This document shows positions 29,300 through 47,060 of a stretch of 64,000 bases of DNA, piece after piece (the stretch's first letter is position 1; each line of letters opens with the position of its first letter). This DNA comes from Brachionus manjavacas. Taxonomy: Eukaryota > Rotifera > Eurotatoria > Ploima > Brachionidae. The notes under the pieces are model-generated. The model searched no databases. It was not told the origin of the DNA and saw only the letters and a list, made by a program, of their open reading frames with translations. The stretch lies in NCBI GenBank assembly GCA_019054805.1, contig JAHQIY010000025.1:186001-250000 (forward strand). The letters are read 5' to 3'. The position numbers were made by a program, and so were the translations under genes.

Positions 29300-31140
29300 A
29301 AAGGAGAAACCTGTTAATCACAAAACAATTTTTAAGCGATTCAAATGTGTACTGAGAGACTCGGAATTAAAAGAAATTGCAGCTATTTAAAATTTCTTTT
29401 CGAACAAAATATGGATTACAAAGTTCCAACAAGTCTTTACCGCTTCGGAAGTTTTGAACGTTCAATCGAAATAAATTGTGATTATTTTAAGATTGAAGAT
29501 GCAAATAAATTGCCGAAGACAAGAAAATACTCGATCTGTTCTCATAGTTGAATAAAAAATCCTTTTTTTTGTAATAGTGAAGGTCACAACATTGCTAGAT
29601 GTCCTGTTTAGAACCATGCATTCGAAAAATTTAATTAAAAAGGACATTTAACTCAGAAATTCTCATAAACTGAGTGACTTAAATCGATTGAACGAGCTAA
29701 AATTGTCAAAGGCAGACTAGCTATTCAGATCGAAGAAGAAAAAATTTCTCAAAAAGAGACATGAGGAATCTTTCTTGTCGTCAAAGTCCACTCAAAAAAG
29801 TATGCATTCTCCAGTTCTAGCAATTTCTCTTAATAAAGATTCTGACCGCTTAAATTTGGTAAAATTAAGGGATCAATCTTAAAAGTCATTATAATTGTTT
29901 TTTATCGAATTCCAAAAAGTAATCAAATCAAGAGCGTTTCAGAATCTGACGTATCACAAAAAGCAAAATCGAAAAAAATATAGGATCAAGCTAAAGATTA
30001 AGAAAATAGTGAATCTCTTTTGTTTAAAACTGAATTTAAGAAAGATTATTGAATTATTTCTATTTTAGCCTTATAATCTAACAGCTAATTTTAAAAAATG
30101 TAGAAACTTTATTCTAGGTGGTGACCTAAGTATTTGAAAAAAGCTAAAAGGCTGCGTAGGAGATAATAAAAAATTTGGCTTGAAGGTTAATTCTTTAAAT
30201 TGAATAAAATCAATCCACCTCATTACATAACTAATTGGATTAGATCCTTTCTAGACTTTTGGACTTAAAAGGTAAATGAGGATGAACAACTGAACAAAGA
30301 ATACCAAATAATTGCAGGTGTCCCACAAGTTCTATCAATTAGTTCTCTTTTATTTAGTATATTAATGGCATTCTCAAAAGAAACAAAACAAATAATGAAT
30401 ACTCTCTGCTTTTCGCAGATGATCTAGTGACATTCTTCATTTATAACAAAAAGGGGAACCTTGAAAAAAAGATAAATAAGTACACCAACGAACTAGAACA
30501 ATGGCTTATTAAATGGAAAATGAAGATATCAGTTGAAAAGTCGTATTCATTAGTCTTTTCTAAGAACAAAAAATAAAGTGATAATATTACCTTAAAAATT
30601 AATGTAAACAGAATACTGAGACAAAAAGAAATCAAGTTTCTTGGTTTTAAATTTGATTCTGAGTTAAACTTTAATATACTGGTAGACAAAATTAAATAAT
30701 GCTGTAATCAAAGCCAAAATATTATTAAGATATTGTCAAACAATAAATGGGGTCTCAATCAAAATACATTAGGAAATTTATATAAATCTTTAGTCGTTCT
30801 TTTCCTTGCTTGAATTCATTTTCAGAAAATTATACCAAATAACTACAAGCAATTCAGAATACAGCAGTCAGATATGAATCGAGATATATTGAATACCCAA
30901 CTCCATTGTGTAGTTGCTACCTTACTACTTCCTATTTTTTCCATGAAGCTTCTACTATGTAAACATGTGTCACATGTAACAACCTATTTCAATATTTGTC
31001 TTTTTAAACTTTCTTTACATTTTTTTTATTTTTATTATTAATTTACTTTATTTTTATTTTTTTAAAATTTATTCTGAAGGAGCTCTTGCTACGTACAGAA
31101 AACAAATAAATAACAATTAATAAAATAAAATAAAATCACA
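29300..31140 (+). mobile_element. LINE-A copy 2: ORF1, endonuclease scrap, RT palm and 3' tail
   Basis: Plus strand. From 29345 the first-protein region runs on, broken by stops. Around 29519-29700 are two decayed CCHC zinc knuckles (FFCNSEGHNIARC, then KGHLTQKFS). 29930-29990 aligns with the start of copy 1 (QIKSVSESDVSQ). A GGDLSI...KLKGCVGDNK scrap of the endonuclease is at 30118-30170, followed directly by RT sequence equivalent to 25830 of copy 1, so roughly 1.7 kb of endonuclease/RT is deleted. Then come SLLFADDLVTFF (about 30403-30437), GNLEKKINKYTNELEQWLIK, and the 3' UTR and hairpin tail at 31068-31140. Dead. Confidence 0.8.
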
Positions 31141-32260
31141 TCTTTTATTTATTTTATAAATATTTTAAACATTATATCAATTTTTTATATTTTTTTTCCT
31201 AATAGGAATCTATTTTAAATAATGAATTAAAAATAGCAAAATTCGAATATTAATTAAGTAGTACCTTAATAGCTAATTTTGTTACCGCTTAAAAAAAAAG
31301 GCTTTTTTAAGATGACATTTTTAGAAGTAAAATTTAGTAATAAAATCAGAAAATAGAGTAATTAGAAATAAATTTTTGTAAAAAACTTTTCCTAATTTTG
31401 AAAAATTTTTATAAGAAATTATTTTTTTTGTGTGAAAGAAAAAAATTAAGGCTATAAGCCCTATTTGTTTCTTAAGTCCCATTAAATTTTGATTTACGGT
31501 ATTTCCGTGCTTAAGAACACATGTCCTGAAACCCAAAGAAATACGTTAGGATATAAACTTTTTCCATGTTAAAAAAATTAAACACAAGTCCGACTTTACA
31601 AGGCATTAATAAAAGGATTTTGAAAAAGGGGTTAAAAGCCAAAGATCAAAGCTTAAGTTTAGGGCGTCGTTTGAATCAATGTTTAAAAAAAATTTTTTTT
31701 TAGATATTTACCAATAACCTTGGTACTGTTGCTGCACATAAAAATGTTGAAAAAAAATTAATTTTTATAAATAATATCCTTTTCATAACTTCAAATAGTG
31801 AAACTCTAGTAATTTATAATAAGAATGGAAGTGTGAGAAAACCATTTGGCAGAAAGAAGCGCTCAAAAAAATAAACAATAAAAATCATGATTTTCATTAA
31901 AATTAAGATCGGACCGAAATTTTTTTTATGCATTTTTATTTTAATTTATTTTTTTTTCTATCTTCAAATAAAATATATTTTTATATTTTTAAAATTGTAA
32001 ATTTTTTTTTAACATAGAAGAAGTTCAAGCGTTTGCATGCGCTAAACATATTTCTTTGAGTCTTGGTTAACTCTAGCTTTGTTTTTTTCTGAAATGTCAA
32101 TTTAAAATGTCTAAATTGATTTAAAATGAAAAAAGTGATTCAATTTCAAAACAATTTTTATTTTCTTCAATAATTTTAATTTAAAAAATAATAACGGAGG
32201 AGGCTTTTTACTAAACAATATGTAAAATTCAAAAAAAAAAAGTGAATATAATAAATTTCT
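31141..32260. other. AT-rich DNA between LINE-A copy 2 and the RAG1-like gene
   Basis: No gene recognised. The 31321-31536 frame is noise. A minus-strand AATAAA at plus 32157-32162, about 100 bp past the RAG1-like stop, is a candidate cleavage signal. No terminal inverted repeat was recognised here. Confidence 0.5.
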
Positions 32261-34231
32261 TCAATTAATGGCTAAATATCCCAAGTATTCCATTCTATTT
32301 CTCTTGTCCATCATTTGCCGCAGAGCGGAGCTTCTTTTGTTCGTACCCTTGAAGTACTGGTTGGTCGAAATGTCGTTTAGCTTTTCCAAACCTTGACAAT
32401 TGAATGCATTGATATCCTGATACAAAAAAACAAATTCGTGTAGGTGCGCCACAAACGCGTGCATGTAAGGTGTTACTGTGGTGCGCGGATAAATCTTGAG
32501 CAGATCGGTGAGCCAGTCGCGGGTATTTTGCTTCAGTTGGTCTGCATTGAGCTCATTGTTGCGCACCAGTTTAATAATCGAATAGAAGTCGTCCCAGATT
32601 TTTTGCAGCAGCACCAAATTTGGATAGTTGGGAATCACTTCTTCCAATCTCAAATTTTCGAAAAGCCTGTTCTTCTCAGGGCCTACTAGGTCGCGCCAGT
32701 TCAGCTTTTTGGTCTCCGGCACCCACTGGAACATCAGTCTAATGTTGCACTTGCTTCTCAAGGTGTTCTGAAGAGCATTCAAATGTTTGTAGTGGGTCAA
32801 GTCGAATTTGGAGATGGCGTTCATGTCGAACTTGTCAGCTTCGCAGCATTCTTTGATCAGCAAATTGAGCAGGTTGTCCGATATGCGCAAATACAAGTGG
32901 AGCATGTCGATTATGTATCTATTGATTGGTATGATATCTTTGAATATGGGCTCCCTGTAGTAGCCGAACTTTGGTTCTTTGGCATCTTGGCACAGCACTT
33001 TTTGATGTTCTTGGTAGGTTCGGCAGCCTTTGGCCACATCTGTTATCGACCATTCTCTGGTCATGTCGTAGAAGTCGTCTTTGCAGCACTTGCACCATAC
33101 GCACGGGTACTTGGAGTTGGCGCTCTGCAGACCCAAACTCTGGGCCAACATTTTCCAATCGGCTGCAAAATAAAACACCAAATTGACCCTCTTGTCGTTC
33201 AGAGTCAAATGCTCGATTTGGCGCAGCTCGGCGATGATCTCCTTAAAGCACTTGGTCAGCGCCTCGTAATTTTCGCTCTCTATCTCAAAAATGCCAATTG
33301 TGTAATTTCCATTTGCTGTTTTGGCCTTGGCGCCTTCGTTTATAATTGTGAAAGTAAAGTTGAGCAGCTTCAAATTTCTTCCAATATTGGTTCCGTCTGC
33401 TCCCAGCTTGATGTGCAGCGTTTTCTCCGCACCACCGAACTCAGCCTGGTTGCAGTCATAGTAATTCTGCAATCGGATAATTATCTTGTCTTTGAGGGAC
33501 ACATAGACGCCCATTTCATTTTCGAAAATTTCGAACATTGAGTTGATTTCGCCGCGCCGCTGCTTCAGCTTAAAAATCGAAGGTATTTCGAGATGGCACA
33601 TTTTTTTCAGATCATCATAGGCAACGTCCGAAATGGAGTGCTTGTCCTTGTAGTAGAGCAAATTGTTCACATTTGGCTCGAGCTTATCAGCCGCCTCGTT
33701 GGTTGGCGCCCGAATTTTGAGCTGGAAGTCGCACTCGTCCAACTCAATCGGGTTGAGCTCAATGCCGCTGATGCACAAGCCTATGCTGCGCAGGAAATGG
33801 TTGCTCTCGGCAAATATCTCCTTGATGGTGTGCTGCAGGCGCACCTTTTGTCTCTGGCACACTTGGTAGTAGTTTTTTCGCTTTACTATTTTGGCCAGCT
33901 TGCTAAATGTGCATTCCTGCTTTATCTTGGTCTGGCCCTCGGTTTTCTTCTCCAAGTCCTTGGCCTTGTCGGACTCGATGCGGGCCTCCAGAATTTTGGT
34001 CGTGATCTCCACAGACTTGCCCAAGTCGAAGCCGGTGTCGCTGGACGAGCGCGGCATCAAAGCGCTGCTCGGATTCAGAATTCTGGTGATGCTCTTTTTG
34101 GTCAGGTTGGCTTCGCCTGGGCTGTCATCCTTTAGCAGCGACTTGATGGTCTTTGGTTTGGAAGTGATGCTTGGCGATGATGACGAGGGCTCCTGGCTCG
34201 AAATAAATGAGGATATTTTTTTTACTTTCAT
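32261..34231 (-). CDS. RAG1/Transib-like DDE recombinase core protein
   Basis: 656 residues, uninterrupted. Positions 1-115 are a Ser/Lys-rich, probably disordered leader. From about 270 the protein fits the RAG1 catalytic core. Candidate catalytic residues: D279 (LGADGTNIG), D358 (YFAADWKML), E616 (GLEKLND). Zinc ligands: C377-x-x-C380 and H591-xxxx-H596. SIT at 395-397 and D442-x-L-H445 also recur in RAG1. Compared with mouse RAG1 (D600, D708, C727, C730, D792, H795, H937, H942, E962, from memory), spacings are identical for D-C (19), C-C (3), C-D (62), H-H (5) and H-E (20). The protein ends 40 residues after the glutamate, near the RAG1 core end. No N-terminal RING and no GGRPR nonamer motif are seen. 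Codon use is host-like. I recall uncharacterised relatives in cnidarians. Active transposase, immobile relic or domesticated gene cannot be decided here. Confidence 0.85.
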   Translation of the reverse strand: MKVKKISSFISSQEPSSSSPSITSKPKTIKSLLKDDSPGEANLTKKSITRILNPSSALMPRSSSDTGFDLGKSVEITTKILEARIESDKAKDLEKKTEGQTKIKQECTFSKLAKIVKRKNYYQVCQRQKVRLQHTIKEIFAESNHFLRSIGLCISGIELNPIELDECDFQLKIRAPTNEAADKLEPNVNNLLYYKDKHSISDVAYDDLKKMCHLEIPSIFKLKQRRGEINSMFEIFENEMGVYVSLKDKIIIRLQNYYDCNQAEFGGAEKTLHIKLGADGTNIGRNLKLLNFTFTIINEGAKAKTANGNYTIGIFEIESENYEALTKCFKEIIAELRQIEHLTLNDKRVNLVFYFAADWKMLAQSLGLQSANSKYPCVWCKCCKDDFYDMTREWSITDVAKGCRTYQEHQKVLCQDAKEPKFGYYREPIFKDIIPINRYIIDMLHLYLRISDNLLNLLIKECCEADKFDMNAISKFDLTHYKHLNALQNTLRSKCNIRLMFQWVPETKKLNWRDLVGPEKNRLFENLRLEEVIPNYPNLVLLQKIWDDFYSIIKLVRNNELNADQLKQNTRDWLTDLLKIYPRTTVTPYMHAFVAHLHEFVFLYQDINAFNCQGLEKLNDISTNQYFKGTNKRSSALRQMMDKRNRMEYLGYLAIN

Positions 34232-36609
34232 TTTTTTCAGATTTTTGGCTAAGCTTTTTGGCTTTTTTTGCTTTTTTTTTTTTCGCTTTGTGGAGACTTA
34301 TGCTTAGTTTAATTCATTATAAATTATTTTTAGCAAAGAATTTAAATAAACTGGGTCGAAATACTTCAATATCGATCTAAATCGTTTATTTGCTTGCGAT
34401 TGCAAATCTTGTAAATACGAAAATAGTTTTTAGCATGCTAAAAACATAAATTATAAAAATTTTATCGCTGAAATTGTTGAAATCTTTAAAAACCTAGGCC
34501 TTTTAAATTATAATTTCTAATAATTCGAAATAAATTAAGCTTTATAAATAAGTCGGCGGATTTAGGCCGCAGATAGGACTGCTTTGAAAAATTTGGATTT
34601 TAATAGAAAATTCTAGATTGATAAAAAGGGGGCTCGAAAAAAATTATTTCGTGGATAACATGTGCTCTTTAGATATTTTTAAAATTTAAGGATTTTTAAT
34701 TTTCAACAAAAAAAGTGAAACTGAGCTCAAATTGAAAAAAAACTGATCTAGACTCATGACTTCATTTTGTCTATTTATTTACAAAAAGTAAATTTTTGAA
34801 TCAGATAAAATTTAAATATATCTTAATTGAACTGAATTTTAAAATTGAACAAAAATCTGAATTTTTTTTGCCTTAACTAAAGACAAGTCTAAAGATAAAT
34901 GATCAGACATTGAATACGAGTTTGAATTTAATATTACTTTAAAATTGGAAACAATACTGATCTATACAATTTAAAAAAATCTAGATAAATCAAAAGGTTT
35001 ATGCTGGAAAAAATTAGTTTTCGGATTCACAACCCAAATAATCAGATTATGAGCATTAAGCTTTATAAATTATTTGTTATTTAAAAAAAAGCGACAAAAT
35101 TTTAAATTTTAAATAATTTTTTCTTTTAAATGGACTTGAAATTAAATTCAAAGATAATTTGATTTAAACCAAAAAATGATCACAAAATTTGATTATAAAA
35201 TTTTGTTTTTTGAACATTAAATTTTATTAAGTTCAATTAGTTTTTCTTTTTTTTTATGTTGGACTTTTTAATTATTTTAGTGAACTTAGAGCAACAAAAA
35301 CGAAAAGATTAATAAAATATTTAAAGCTATACAATTAATTTAATAATTTTCAATTTATTTTTATTTGAAAATAAAAGTGAATTTCAGTTTCAATGAATTC
35401 AATTATTGCATCTTTAAATTAATAAATTATCTTTTTGTAAAAATTCCAAGCTACTGAATATTAAGGATACGAGCGGTAGAAACTTAGTTTAAAATTGTAA
35501 AATCTTATTTTTTATTAATAGATTTATAGGTAATATGATTGCCGTATCAAACTTACAAGTGAACCCAACTATGAGAGTAGTAAGCCACGGTTTCGAACAC
35601 AGATTTATGTTATTATAGCCAAAAAAGGTACTCATCATTTTTTTGAATAATTCAGTGAAATTTCTTTTAAAAATTAAATAAAGAAAATAATTTAAAAAAA
35701 CTCAACAAATAAGTTTTTTATAATTAGATTTTTTTCTAATTTTTAAATGAAAATATTAAGCATTCAAAGGTTTTATTATAATATTTTATTTTGAAAAATT
35801 CTCTTAAACAATTAAAATCCAGAATAAATTAATAAAAAACAAAAAAATAATTCATAAATTATAAAAGAAATATAGGTGCACCGAGCCAAACCTACTTATC
35901 ATTTGATAAAAATCTTTGTTTTAGGACGCATAGTTTTAGATTTAATATTTAAAACAAGGTGCAACTTAAAATAAGTATTTTCGTCAATTTTTAATAATTC
36001 TAATACTTTTGAAAAATGGATTCGTTTTATCAATATTATTTTTTCAGGCACAGCTTTCGTTTAATTGCAAATAAAAGAAATTTGGTAAAAATAAAATATT
36101 AAATTCTCATGTTTAGTAAAAAAAATTTACAAAAAATTAAATTAATTTATTAGAGAAAAAAAGTCTTTCAAAAAAAAATTGATAAACAAATTTAAGTAAA
36201 ACTACTCAATTTTTAAAACAACGATAATTATCGAAAAATTTTGTCAAATTACGGAAATGAACTTAAATCATTGTTCAAACCACCTTTATAATTAAAAAAA
36301 ATGCGATCGAGTCAATAATATTAAATTATTTATTTATTCCAAAAAACACCTTTTATTAGTAGAAAATAAAAAATTGAAGAAGTTGTAAAACAATGTTATA
36401 CATAAATATATTTATTAATTTAATAAAAAAATATATTTGAGTTCAAAAAATAATAAAGATATTATTATAAAATTATTGATATTTTTAGAGTTTTTTTTTC
36501 ACTAGATTTTAAAAAAAAAATGATTCTTATTTGATGAGTTATTTATCAACAAATACTATAAAAAATGTTGCAACTTGGTTTAAAAATTTTCATCTATTTA
36601 TACTGTAAA
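34232..36609. other. AT-rich intergenic DNA upstream of the RAG1-like gene
   Basis: The reading frame upstream of 34231 stays open into an A-rich, lysine-coding stretch, so the first ATG used here is the sensible start. No terminal repeat, promoter motif or other gene recognised. Confidence 0.5.
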
Positions 36610-36929
36610 GTCTCGATTTTGGACTAAAGGGATTTAAGCCAAAAATTTATTTAATGGAATCCGAAGTTATAAAAATAATGTATAGATCAAAAGCATTCCG
36701 AATACATGTCAAGTATTTTCGACAAAAAAATTAAAAAAATTTTTCCAAAAATAACTATTCTGATGTCACTTTTTAATAGTCGTAGGTTAATTATTTATAT
36801 AGAGAGCTGTTTCTTATTATTGAATACCACTAAATACCAGAATTTGAAACTTGACTTGTCCACTTGGAGAATGTCATACAATAGCAACAAGAAATTTGCA
36901 TTTATGGATATTCATCATGATCAATTTTA

Positions 36930-42774: not shown

Positions 42775-44425
42775 AAATTAATCAATTAACTATACCAAAG
42801 AAGGGTGTAACTACTTCGGTCTCTGATTATAGACCTATTTCAGTCTCAAATCCTTTCAGCACAATCTTTGAATCACTTTTGATATCGAAGATGCGTTCTA
42901 ATCTCGAAATTCACCCAAAATCAATTCGGTTATAAGTGTAAGACTTCGAGCAAAAGTGCTTTTGTGTAGTTAAAGAGACAATAAAATTTTTTAAAAATCG
43001 AAATACAAAATTTTATGTAATCAGCTTGGATGCTACAAAAGCATTCGACAAATTATGGCGTGATGGTCTGTTTTTCAAACTCAAAAATGTAATTGATGCA
43101 AGTTCATGGAGAATTCTTTACAAAAATGATAGTCTTTCAGAAAAATGCGTGAAATCTAATGGTAATGAAGGTGTAAATTTTAGTGTCGGTGAAGGTGTTA
43201 AGCAAGGAGGAATTCTCTCTCCATATCTTTTTAATTTTTCAATTAATGATTTGATCAAAAGCTGTATTGAGTCGAATCTTGGTGCTAAAATTGGAGATAT
43301 CAATGCTTCAGCATATTTTGATGATATTGCAATACTATCACCACTCGCTTCTCATTTACAAAAAATTTTAGATAGAATCTATCAGTATTCGTTATTATGG
43401 AAAATTGAATTCAACACCAAAAAGTCTTCTTATCTTCTTTTTAGGAAAAAACAGAATGATGACGGTGCTAAGAATTTCAAACTTAGGGAGCTTGATATAC
43501 CTCTCCAAAAAGGAATAATTTATCTTGGACTTCCATCGGGCGATCCAAACTTTATTAATTCATTTATTGATGCTAAAATGAAAGATGCGGAAAAAAGTAT
43601 GTTCTCTCTGTATTCAATTGGCTCCAAGCCGAGAACTATGAACCCTAAAACAGTCGCCTTTATCTATAAACAATTTTGTCAATCAATCCTCAGATACTCA
43701 ATGGGTATAGTTTATTTAACAGACAATAAATTGAAAGAACTTGATACTTGGCAAAATATCCTAATTAAAAACAAGATCGGTATTAGTAAATACTCACAGA
43801 CAAGACCATTGTATAGTGCTATCAATCTGGAATTTGTTTCTCAAATTTACATGAAACATAAATTATTTTTTCTAGGACAAATTTTTGAACAATGATTTGA
43901 GCAGGAAACTCTGTATGGACATTAAGAAAATGCCTGTAATTACTTCGAGAAATGATGCTTCGTTTGGCAGACAATTAAGAACATTGGAACAAAAGATTAG
44001 TGTTGAAAGTCTAGAATATAATATAAATGAGCTGTTCACGTGCCAAATTAGAGGCTTAGTTGACTCAGCTAAGTTTTTGTTAATAAAATTAGAATTGCAT
44101 TAGATAGTAATTTAACTTTTTACTTTTATTTTGACTACTTGAATCTTTTACTTAAGCCTGCCATTTCTTAATTATTTAGATTTTTTTCTCTTTTTACCAC
44201 TCTTTTATGTAATCTGACTTTAAAATTTTTATAAATATTTTTATTAAATGGATTAATTATTTATGAAACTTAATGTGATTTTCTAATCAGATTTTTTTAT
44301 ATTTTTTTTTATTTTTTTCTTTTCTTTGTAAAATTGTAATTTGTATTTTTGTGTTTCCTTTTCAACTTGCCTTTTAGACTATTTTTTTTTTAAATAAATA
44401 AATAAATAAATAAAATTAGCAAAGT
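42775..44425 (+). mobile_element. LINE-B: RT-bearing non-LTR retrotransposon, partly open
   Basis: RT starts near 42790 (INQLTIPKKG...SDYRPISVSNPF) with a frame break near 42930. A 289-residue open part at 43026-43895 carries LDATKAFDKLW, GVKQGGILSPYLFNFSINDL and AYFDDIAILSP, where the usual YADD is YFDD, and continues through the thumb (PLQKGIIYLGLPSG). It overlaps a further frame at 43885-44103. The 3' UTR ends with a CAACTTGCCTTTTAGAC block and an (AAATA)n tail at 44393-44415. It is the best-preserved RT frame in the window, but truncated at the 5' end and frameshifted. Confidence 0.85.
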
Positions 44426-45220: not shown

Positions 45221-46822
45221 CTAATTGGTAGGAAGATTAATTTTCTCAATTTTGGCAATCACTTTGTTGTTGTACATGGGCACATGAGCCAAGTCGTCAG
45301 TAGCCTCCTGGAAAACAACACACTCTTCGTCCAACAAGTCACTTTTGGTCTTAAAAAAGTACCTAAAGTTTCCTTTCTTGGTGATCAACTGTTTGAACTG
45401 GGCAAGTGTCAAGTTCGGCCCATTAAAAGTGGAGATGTAGGCCAGGTCCTCTCCAGGCAAGTAGTAAGCGACAGTTGTTTTGACGTGCGTCTCTTCCTCC
45501 TCGATCTTCTTCGCTTTGGCGGCTTCGGCATTTTTGTGCGCCGAGCTGACCAGCCAGTCGTTGACCCTTTCGATGGAGGCCACGCTGCGCGTCGACACAC
45601 CACTGTCCACCGAGCTCTGCACCTGGTTGTGCTGACTGTCGATGTCAACTTCTTTTGACGTCGAAGTCAACTGATAAAAGTGATGGCTTTTCTGGTCTTT
45701 GACGCCTTGGCTAAGTGACACATTCTTCATTTTCACCGACACACTCGGCTTGACATGGGACTTTTTGACGCACATCTTGGGACTCTGCATCACATGGTAC
45801 ACTCGGTCCAAATGCTCGTCCAGCTGGTCGTTGGCTTCGTCGTTGCCATTGTGCAAGTTACTGTTCGACAGCGACCTCTTTTTCAGCTTGTGCTCTCCGT
45901 TGAGGCCGAGCAAATAGGCCTCGAGCTTCGAGGCCACGAGATCGAAGAACTTTTTCGGGTCCGCTTCCGACATCGGAATTTGGGCTTTTTTGGCCATGCT
46001 GGTCTTGAGCATGACAGTTGGCTGGTGGGCCGCGTCGGCCTCGAACTCGGGCAAGTTCATGGTCACGTTTTTGTTCGCCATCAAATTTTTCTTGATGCTC
46101 TTGTCGAATTTGGAGTGGCGATCGTCGTGCGAGACCACTGACTGAATCTCGCTGTCCTGGCAGCTGACTGTGACCGGTTTGGTGATGACGCTGTAGGGGT
46201 TGGGCGGCAGGAAGGCGCGCGAGGGCCTCACGTTGAGAGACAGTGTCGAGTCGTTCAGGTGATTGATGGACCGGGTGCTGGTGGACAGGTGGGCCGAGTT
46301 TTTGTAGAGTTTTTTGTGGTGGCCTATGGACGCGGACGACGCGGTCTTGCTGGTTTTGGCGTGCTGACCACACTTGGCCTGGTCGCCTAGAAACTCTTCG
46401 AATTGGTAGGTCTTTTTGTCCGAGCCGTTCATTCCGCTTGCCAAATTGTCGAGGTAAATTTTGGACCTCAAAAACAAAGGAAAGTATTCGCGTTCGAGTA
46501 TTTTCTTGATCTCATTCTTGACCGCTTTGAACACGCTCTCGTTGTAGGTGCTTTTTTTGAGGCTGTCGCACAGCTTTTGCTTGAGCTCTTCGTTCAGATA
46601 GGGCAGCTGGTTTTTGACGAAGCACGCCTGGTAGGTTTTTTCCAGTATTTGCTTTATTCGGTGCCGGTCATCCACGCGCTGATTGTGGAAGCACGAACAG
46701 ATCAGGTAAAGAGTGAGCAGGTTGTCGCTGGAGTTGTTGAAGTCTTTGAGAAAGAGGGCGAAGAGCTTTCGGCCCGAGTCGTTCTGCAGAAGTGTGTCCA
46801 AGTCGTTGTGTTGTTGTGACAT
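45221..46822 (-). CDS. axin: Axin, scaffold of the beta-catenin destruction complex
   Basis: 533 residues, single exon. Axin holds APC, GSK3, CK1 and beta-catenin together so that beta-catenin is phosphorylated and destroyed; its DIX domain polymerises with Dishevelled. Seen in order: RGS domain (APC-binding), about 8-126; a PPNPYSV...SCQDSEI motif at 206-226, as in the Axin linker; GSK3-binding helix about 287-302 (DPKKFFDLVASKLEAY); beta-catenin-binding helix about 332-346 (DQLDEHLDRVYHV); DIX domain 447-528 (VAYYLPGEDLAYISTFNGPN, FKQLITKKGNFRYFFK). No N-terminal tankyrase-binding region: the protein starts almost at the RGS domain. It is shorter than vertebrate Axin (about 860). GC-rich codons suggest strong constraint. 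Confidence 0.96.
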   Translation of the reverse strand: MSQQHNDLDTLLQNDSGRKLFALFLKDFNNSSDNLLTLYLICSCFHNQRVDDRHRIKQILEKTYQACFVKNQLPYLNEELKQKLCDSLKKSTYNESVFKAVKNEIKKILEREYFPLFLRSKIYLDNLASGMNGSDKKTYQFEEFLGDQAKCGQHAKTSKTASSASIGHHKKLYKNSAHLSTSTRSINHLNDSTLSLNVRPSRAFLPPNPYSVITKPVTVSCQDSEIQSVVSHDDRHSKFDKSIKKNLMANKNVTMNLPEFEADAAHQPTVMLKTSMAKKAQIPMSEADPKKFFDLVASKLEAYLLGLNGEHKLKKRSLSNSNLHNGNDEANDQLDEHLDRVYHVMQSPKMCVKKSHVKPSVSVKMKNVSLSQGVKDQKSHHFYQLTSTSKEVDIDSQHNQVQSSVDSGVSTRSVASIERVNDWLVSSAHKNAEAAKAKKIEEEETHVKTTVAYYLPGEDLAYISTFNGPNLTLAQFKQLITKKGNFRYFFKTKSDLLDEECVVFQEATDDLAHVPMYNNKVIAKIEKINLPTN

Positions 46823-47060
46823 TTTGTGCTGAGCAATTGGCTTCTAAAACATTTTTGTTCAATTAGCAATTTTTGATTTAATTGTGTGTAACATGTCCGA
46901 TTGTGAACAATTATTCGTTTAAGACGGCTTTTTGTGCACGCATTAATTCTATGCTGTGCTAGTCGTTAGTAGACTGCACGAGAACAATTTGATTTTGTCT
47001 TAATGTTGCCAAAATCCAAAGATCGATCGATTGCATCCAAAACTTCTATTATTCTTCTAT
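46823..47060. promoter_or_regulatory. Upstream flank of Axin (probable promoter region)
   Basis: Less AT-rich than the surroundings and free of repeats until 47062. No TATA box or initiator can be assigned with confidence; the role follows only from position upstream of the Axin start. Confidence 0.25.

Follow-up and report, generated by a model that had tools for sequence, protein, structure and literature searches.

The gene P0001, located in the 64-kb stretch of rotifer DNA analysed here (the window, C25:186001-250000), probably codes for a CMCT-clade recombinase of the DDE (RNase H-fold) type near RAG1L, derived from a two-gene transposon family resident in the same genome and now a stationary single-copy host gene with its active site kept. 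Its motifs keep the register of RAG1L and RAG1 between the second D and the last E. The mobile relatives bear repeats at their termini and a divergent accessory gene, and in one of their subfamilies the target duplications measure 1 bp; the P0001 copy itself is solitary, intact and host-like. P0001 is accordingly best read as a domesticated or long-resident gene of what appears to be a new CMCT lineage near RAG1L. A RAG1L-near lineage that has CAT ends, carries an accessory gene in divergent orientation and duplicates one target base, together with a probable domesticated member, would itself be new; in the literature searched on protostome, rotifer or domesticated RAG1-like genes, with most subscription papers and Repbase outside its scope, no such family was found.

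Recombinase core and relationship to RAG1L

The frame of P0001 runs on the minus strand from an ATG at 34231 down to 32264, followed by the stop codon at 32263-32261, and upstream of the ATG it is open as far as 34297 (Table 1). Residues 1-110 are unlike the start of the mobile relatives and gave no convincing alignment to them; with one Cys and no His, this segment therefore carries no zinc-finger or RING pattern.

Table 1. Coordinates of P0001, its predicted functional residues and a neighbouring gene in the window
Feature	Position	Strand	Basis
P0001 (RAG1-like DDE recombinase core), intact 656-codon frame	32261..34231	-	frame and residue check
D279 codon, predicted first catalytic D (RAG1 D600 by motif)	33395..33397	-	residue checked
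D358 codon, predicted second catalytic D (RAG1 D708)	33158..33160	-	residue check, profile, MAFFT
C377xxC380, predicted first zinc pair (RAG1 C727/C730)	33092..33103	-	residue check, profile, MAFFT
D442xLH445 (RAG1 D792/H795)	32897..32908	-	residue check, MAFFT
H591xxxxH596, predicted second zinc pair (RAG1 H937/H942)	32444..32461	-	residue check, profile, MAFFT
E616 codon, predicted last catalytic acid (RAG1 E962), in FNCQGLEKLND	32384..32386	-	spacing, hhalign, MAFFT
N-terminal 110 codons, Ser/Lys-rich	33902..34231	-	read from translation and family alignment
AATAAA, possible polyadenylation signal, ~100 bp past the P0001 stop	32157..32162	-	read; function inferred
Axin (RGS plus DIX domain), one open frame	45221-46843	-	Pfam

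A first-pass annotation had proposed a RAG1/Transib-like core in this frame, and every residue it named (D279, D358, C377/C380, SIT at 395-397, D442xLH445, H591, H596 and E616) was found as described, while the mouse RAG1 positions it gave (D600, D708, C727, SIT745, D792, H937 and E962) agree with the deposited chain. The spacings it gave as identical between P0001 and RAG1 hold, namely 19 residues from D to C, 3 from C to C, 15 from the second C to SIT, 62 from the second C to D, 5 from H to H and 20 from H to E, and so do its two exceptions, H445 to H591 with 146 residues versus 142 in RAG1 and D to D with 79 versus 108. The last of the identical distances, H596-E616 in P0001 and H942-E962 in RAG1, is 23 residues in amphioxus RAG1L. 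The register of D279 with RAG1 is given by the DG motif alone; hhalign starts after this residue and MAFFT leaves it unaligned.

Comparison of profiles placed this register well beyond chance, as had been claimed. The family profile scored 52.6 against a two-row alignment of RAG1L and RAG1 over 292 columns (P0001 residues 307-620), taking in D358 to E616 and leaving out D279, while all 30 column-shuffled controls stayed at or below 24.4 and one reversed control gave 15.6. The score was 52.9 against RAG1L alone (maximum of 40 shuffles 27.0) and 30.9 against RAG1 alone (control maximum 24.2); P0001 as a single sequence reached a weak 29.9 against RAG1L, a value without matched control, and the identity between these two is about 20%. 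With P0001 as query against all solved chains, phmmer retrieved amphioxus RAG1L (6b40), aligned over residues 341-604 with E 0.0029, with FlgM (E 1.4) as the sole other match to E 10. The 12-row family profile gave five matches in the PDB to E 10, of which RAG1L was the best (E 9.3e-5, 24.6 bits), the others being three RAG1 entries (E 0.39 for zebrafish RAG1, then 1.1 and 1.1) and a SEC2 coiled coil (E 1). In the opposite direction, the amphioxus RAG1L core found two matches to E 10 in the whole genome (114.2 Mb, 61 contigs), the better being the P0001 locus with a weak E of 0.0875 and the second a P0001-family member with E 0.55. Profile iteration with RAG1L added was driven by RAG1L itself and was not counted as independent.

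The best solved relative is thus RAG1L, followed by RAG1, so that the RAG1 part of the earlier label was supported; its Transib part was not, as HzTransib, the one Transib compared, was unmatched by the P0001-family profiles at E <=10. The suggestion that the lineage might have gone unrecognised was borne out by the domain collections, in which P0001 had no Pfam match to E 10 and no NCBIfam family. Genome searches with Pfam RAG1 (PF12940) and RAG2 (PF03089) gave no match, and neither did control genomes for RAG1 or 14 control genomes for RAG2. In viral and prokaryote collections no relative was confirmed; two pattern searches there gave 44 and 551 matches, none of which was upheld by tblastn. 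Weak Pfam matches of the relatives, such as a SANT linker at E 0.0036, were dismissed as chance, occurring in one member each with the exception of DUF1258 (two of 12).

As set out in PMC12730594, the CMCT clade comprises CACTA, Mirage, Chapaev, Transib and RAG1, the motifs C(2)C and H(3-4)H, located between the second D and E, are common to the whole clade, and its transposons mostly have CA..TG ends and target duplications of 2-5 bp; the label RAG1/Transib was in this respect too narrow. In P0001, C377xxC380 and H591x4H596 are located between D358 and E616, and CA..TG termini were found in the mobile relatives, the duplications of which fall outside the 2-5 bp range in one subfamily (1 bp) with a long L002 copy fitting 2 bp. 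An older classification (PMC3985635) groups RAG1 with DUF1280 (Chapaev) and places DUF1258 (Mirage) elsewhere. The D-to-C spacing of 19 is not specific to RAG1, because it recurs, along with DxxH, in L090, a Mirage-type (DUF1258) frame found elsewhere in this genome (D283, C302). The SIT motif was present in four of the nine family rows covering it (P0001, L003, L005 and L010) and missing from L002, L004, L006, L008 and L011. Considering the clade-wide motifs, the spacing in L090 and the differing classifications, the safe label on sequence grounds is therefore a CMCT recombinase, nearest to RAG1L among what was compared.

It is very improbable that P0001 is instead a Mirage/CACTA-type (DUF1258/Transposase_21) transposase, with a RAG1 likeness that is only the shared clade motif. 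DUF1258 was matched weakly by two of the 12 family rows (best E 0.046; L008 at profile positions 173-240), and both the D-C spacing and DxxH of L090 and the sharing of motifs across the clade (PMC12730594) would suit such an assignment, but the family profile scored 18.8 against L090, under its shuffled maximum of 25.3, versus 52.9 against RAG1L. DUF1258 was rejected as the closest family; P0001 itself is unmatched by it to E 10, and all 11 DUF1258 matches in the genome to E 10 lie at other loci. Three places among these matches exceed the family cut-off and some lie in long open frames; the matches represent a separate CMCT transposon group (examples are C3:1299357-1299959, which is L090, C11:441579-442175 and C1:6944291-6944887). 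Chapaev (PF06918) was dropped, its five sub-threshold matches all lying at other loci.

Mobile relatives, their ends and target duplications

A tblastn search of the genome with P0001 returned at least 61 matches including the P0001 locus, at least 60 of them elsewhere with 24-61% identity, which were merged by hand into 39 places (40 if a match 4 kb from another stands apart). Many of the copies are disrupted by stops or frameshifts; L002 and L004 are open frames. An accessory frame of about 164-171 codons was detected at 18 of the 39 places (E <=1e-3, available flanks), in every case upstream of the transposase and on the opposite strand, in a divergent, head-to-head arrangement, with L012 showing one more accessory match, which lies downstream and shares the strand of the transposase. 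Four accessory proteins were scanned against Pfam, two of which gave no match to E 1 and two a single match each (E 0.016 and 0.02); in an alignment of four such proteins, TR and YxxGxY are conserved close to the N-terminus. In the 12-row tree, P0001 is sister to L003/L005/L010/L016 with support of 97/98 and occupies a branch by itself, 0.96 changes per site long, over which all motifs are kept.

All four copies of one subfamily, L004, L006, L007 and L008, carry, between the two divergent genes, a 138-150 bp duplicate of their own D358-CxxC coding stretch, 77-86% identical (L004:3434-3571, L006:3174-3325, L007:2989-3130 and L008:2908-3045). An inverted repeat at C3:477000-495999 (L040, L041) has 6.7-kb arms that are 99.5% identical, each with a transposase fragment, and two transposase/accessory copies in the same orientation, with partly equal match scores, lie 6.7 kb apart at C11:3214777-3216395 and 3221520-3222622.

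The transposase-side end CATAGTGAGTGAATCGTCCGAATTTT was found in four near-identical copies, one of which has a single mismatch, and the accessory-side end CATCTT(G/A)AGTGAATTCAATGTAAATCG in three copies; elements of the L002 and L005 types show the related ends CATATTGAAGG, CATAATGAAG and CATATTGAGTAGAAC. The mobile relatives thus end in CATAGTG and CATCTTG, and CAT..ATG is intact in 18 of the 20 short copies read, while one short L002-type element, read by eye, starts CACATTG. Searching the genome with the two end patterns at <=3 mismatches gave 36 and 31 places, respectively, compared with none for either reversed-pattern control. Pairing these ends by hand gave 27 short elements (320-337 bp) and three long ones, with 6 and 1 left unpaired. 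Three 330-bp element copies lie about 13.6 kb apart (C4:3805244, 3818795, 3832389), which suggests that a unit of 13.6 kb is repeated in tandem.

A 1-bp target duplication was read in 19 of the 20 short elements with both flanks read (20 of the 27), whereas 2000 shuffled pairings matched at one base in 7.9 elements on average and 16 at most (binomial about 2.6e-7). A 2-bp match was seen in 6 of the 20 (shuffled mean 3.1, maximum 8) and a duplication of 3-10 bp in none, and a 5-bp target duplication was rejected for these elements. All three long copies with both ends match at one base as well, bringing the subfamily to 22 of 23 copies. The result comes from the L004/L006/L007 subfamily; in the literature searched, phrases for 1-bp target duplications returned nothing relevant.

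Empty sites agree with this count. When the flanks of an element were joined with one copy of the duplicated base, four of five short elements with repeat-matching flanks aligned without gaps to uninterrupted repeat copies, with the same junction base. The matches were 55/59, 55/59, 51/54 and 46/54 for MITE 78, 55/59, 53/59 and 45/47 for MITE 80, 35/38 for MITE 82, and 34/37 and 32/37 for MITE 88, with L016 and L020 taken as one place. MITE 68 was not counted, its match being of low complexity and its junction base different, and flank alignments that were short or incomplete were left out. The window itself contains, at 30682-31130, a dispersed repeat common to many loci, a copy of which is interrupted elsewhere by MITE 78; the window copy aligns across the MITE 78 junction and represents an empty site.

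The 1-bp rule is established in a single subfamily, because the long L002-type copy, with c on the left and t on the right, does not fit 1 bp but does fit a 2-bp tc duplication; a short L002-type element, its ends read by eye, fits 1 bp. The subfamily nearest to P0001 (L003, L005, L010 and L016) is without a demonstrated 1-bp duplication, and the transposase-side end of L005 looks degraded.

The solitary, host-like state of P0001

P0001 stands apart from these relatives in copy number and surroundings. Among the tblastn matches listed, its long matches elsewhere in the genome reach at most 37-39% identity, with no second copy above 39% over >=300 residues. The 64-kb window contains no accessory frame, the best match having E 0.05 and lying more than 30 kb off, and between 30000 and 37000 no terminus motif was found apart from a single one within the frame and an overlapping pair at 36.9 kb. 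The sole DNA match to a transposase relative (E 1e-8, >=80 bp) lies inside the P0001 frame, and the matches of its flanks are dispersed repeats.

The neighbourhood also includes a rhodopsin-type receptor and a family-2 glycosyltransferase (Pfam) in addition to the Axin frame listed in Table 1; the RGS plus DIX architecture, which is not known outside animals, points to an animal host. At 42942-43895 on the plus strand lies a frame for a reverse transcriptase (RVT_1, E 5e-21), the GC3 of which, 0.25, is transposon-like.

Codon use was compared with a host reference made up of five presumed host frames of the window, two of them without a Pfam family. The GC3 of P0001 is 0.647, against 0.40-0.72 in these host frames and 0.20-0.35 in the transposon frames, and the log-ratio of host to transposon codon use is +0.387 per codon for P0001. 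Under leave-one-out, all five host frames were positive (one at +0.015), and all eight transposase and all three accessory frames were negative. Single codons followed the same division: TTA makes up 4% of TTA plus TTG in P0001, 3% in the two GC3-richest host frames and 65% in the transposons, TCG accounts for 44%, 44% and 16% of TCN, and CGT for 0, 0 and 24% of CGN. P0001 differs from the host pair in GTC (9% versus 43%), GTA (23% versus 0) and AGA (79% versus 50%).

P0001 thus combines four marks of domestication, being single-copy, intact, without detected termini and host-like in its codons. That 656 codons are open and every motif is kept over a branch of 0.96 indicates selection, whether P0001 was under it in the role of a transposon or of a host gene.

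The former case, in which P0001 would be the best-preserved copy of a recently mobile, low-copy transposon lineage with decayed or unrecognised termini, is unlikely. It draws on the dozens of copies in the family, on the well-supported sister relationship with a mobile subfamily and on the open frames of L002 and L004, and a transposon lineage that had been active for long and used codons unusually would be intact as well; moreover, because termini differ between subfamilies, those of P0001's own lineage could be missed. Against it stand the host-like codon use, which none of the eight transposase frames shares, the lack of a second copy above the 39% limit among the matches listed, the lack of an accessory frame in the window and, from 30000 to 36900, of any terminus motif beyond the P0001 frame, and the restriction of DNA matches with transposase relatives to the P0001 frame, where the flanks match dispersed repeats.

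Composition raises a further alternative, horizontal acquisition of P0001, as a gene or as an element, from a donor species whose genes are richer in GC, its intactness being due to youth. The GC content of P0001 is 0.46, compared with 0.26 and 0.20 in its 500-bp flanks, and the 37-39% ceiling on identity over long stretches, among the genome matches listed, would fit a foreign origin. The neighbouring host genes resemble P0001 in composition and share most of its codon preferences, however, and the sister group of P0001 is resident in the same genome, which makes such an origin extremely doubtful. A host gene descended from the resident transposons remains the preferred reading of P0001.

Proposed mechanism and comparison with known systems

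By homology with RAG1, P0001 would be a dimeric DDE recombinase in which D279, D358 and E616 hold two catalytic metals, C377, C380, H591 and H596 bind one zinc, and H445 acts like RAG1 H795. The ancestral or mobile enzyme is predicted to cut the CAT...ATG ends and to join them to target strands one base apart, and the divergent accessory partner of the mobile relatives may aid end recognition. The host protein may have kept DNA binding and, because the full catalytic triad is kept, perhaps still cuts DNA. A bolder version, on balance unlikely, is that P0001 is an active domesticated RAG1-like recombinase working on host DNA, perhaps at CATANTG-type ends left by its parent transposon, the parent family being a new CMCT lineage with one-base joins; if true, P0001 would be an invertebrate parallel to the RAG takeover.

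How a RAG-type transposase turns into a host recombinase is an old question, to which a single vertebrate case and some invertebrate RAG1L genes have so far given the answers. As a seemingly settled P0001 and recognisable parent transposons occur in one genome, the steps become directly comparable. The 1-bp duplication would widen the published CMCT range of 2-5 bp, and it bears on the possible distance between the two strand joins in RAG-type synapses.

RAG1L (ProtoRAG, amphioxus, 6b40) and vertebrate RAG1 have the second D, CxxC, (S/K)IT, DxxH, HxxxxH and E in the same order as P0001 and with near-equal spacing. They differ in the distance from the first to the second D (108-110 residues versus 79 in P0001) and in the N-terminus, where P0001 is without the RING/zinc-finger pattern of the RAG1L/RAG1 system; RING is also missing from nemertean and echinoderm RAG1L, as described in PMC7204232. 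The same paper reports that protostome RAG-like transposons 'invariably' make 5-bp duplications and start with CAC, in contrast to the CAT ends and 1-bp duplications of P0001's mobile relatives. RAG-like transposons have a convergent RAG2L (kelch) partner; the partner observed in the relatives of P0001 is a divergent frame without a Pfam family.

Transib, for which 5-bp duplications and CAC ends are likewise given in PMC7204232, was represented by HzTransib (6pqn), which a RAG1/RAG1L chimera query matched at 24.2 bits, comparable with the 24.6 bits between the P0001 family and RAG1L. ESTA, EnSpm, Mirage, Chapaev, Plavaka and Lanisha have C(2)C, H(3-4)H and CA..TG termini as found here (PMC12730594) and are distinguished by duplications of 2-5 bp versus 1 bp in the relatives of P0001. 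ESTA of fungi also resembles RAG1 by HHpred but makes TA duplications.

A parallel in state is offered by the domesticated sea urchin RAG1L genes. According to PMC9885083, these are called RAG1L and one is paired with RAG2L; P0001 is far more divergent, and no RAG2L partner was detected for it. Nevertheless, the sea urchin genes have a RAG1-type core without termini, as P0001 does, and provide a published precedent for a domesticated RAG1L in this condition.
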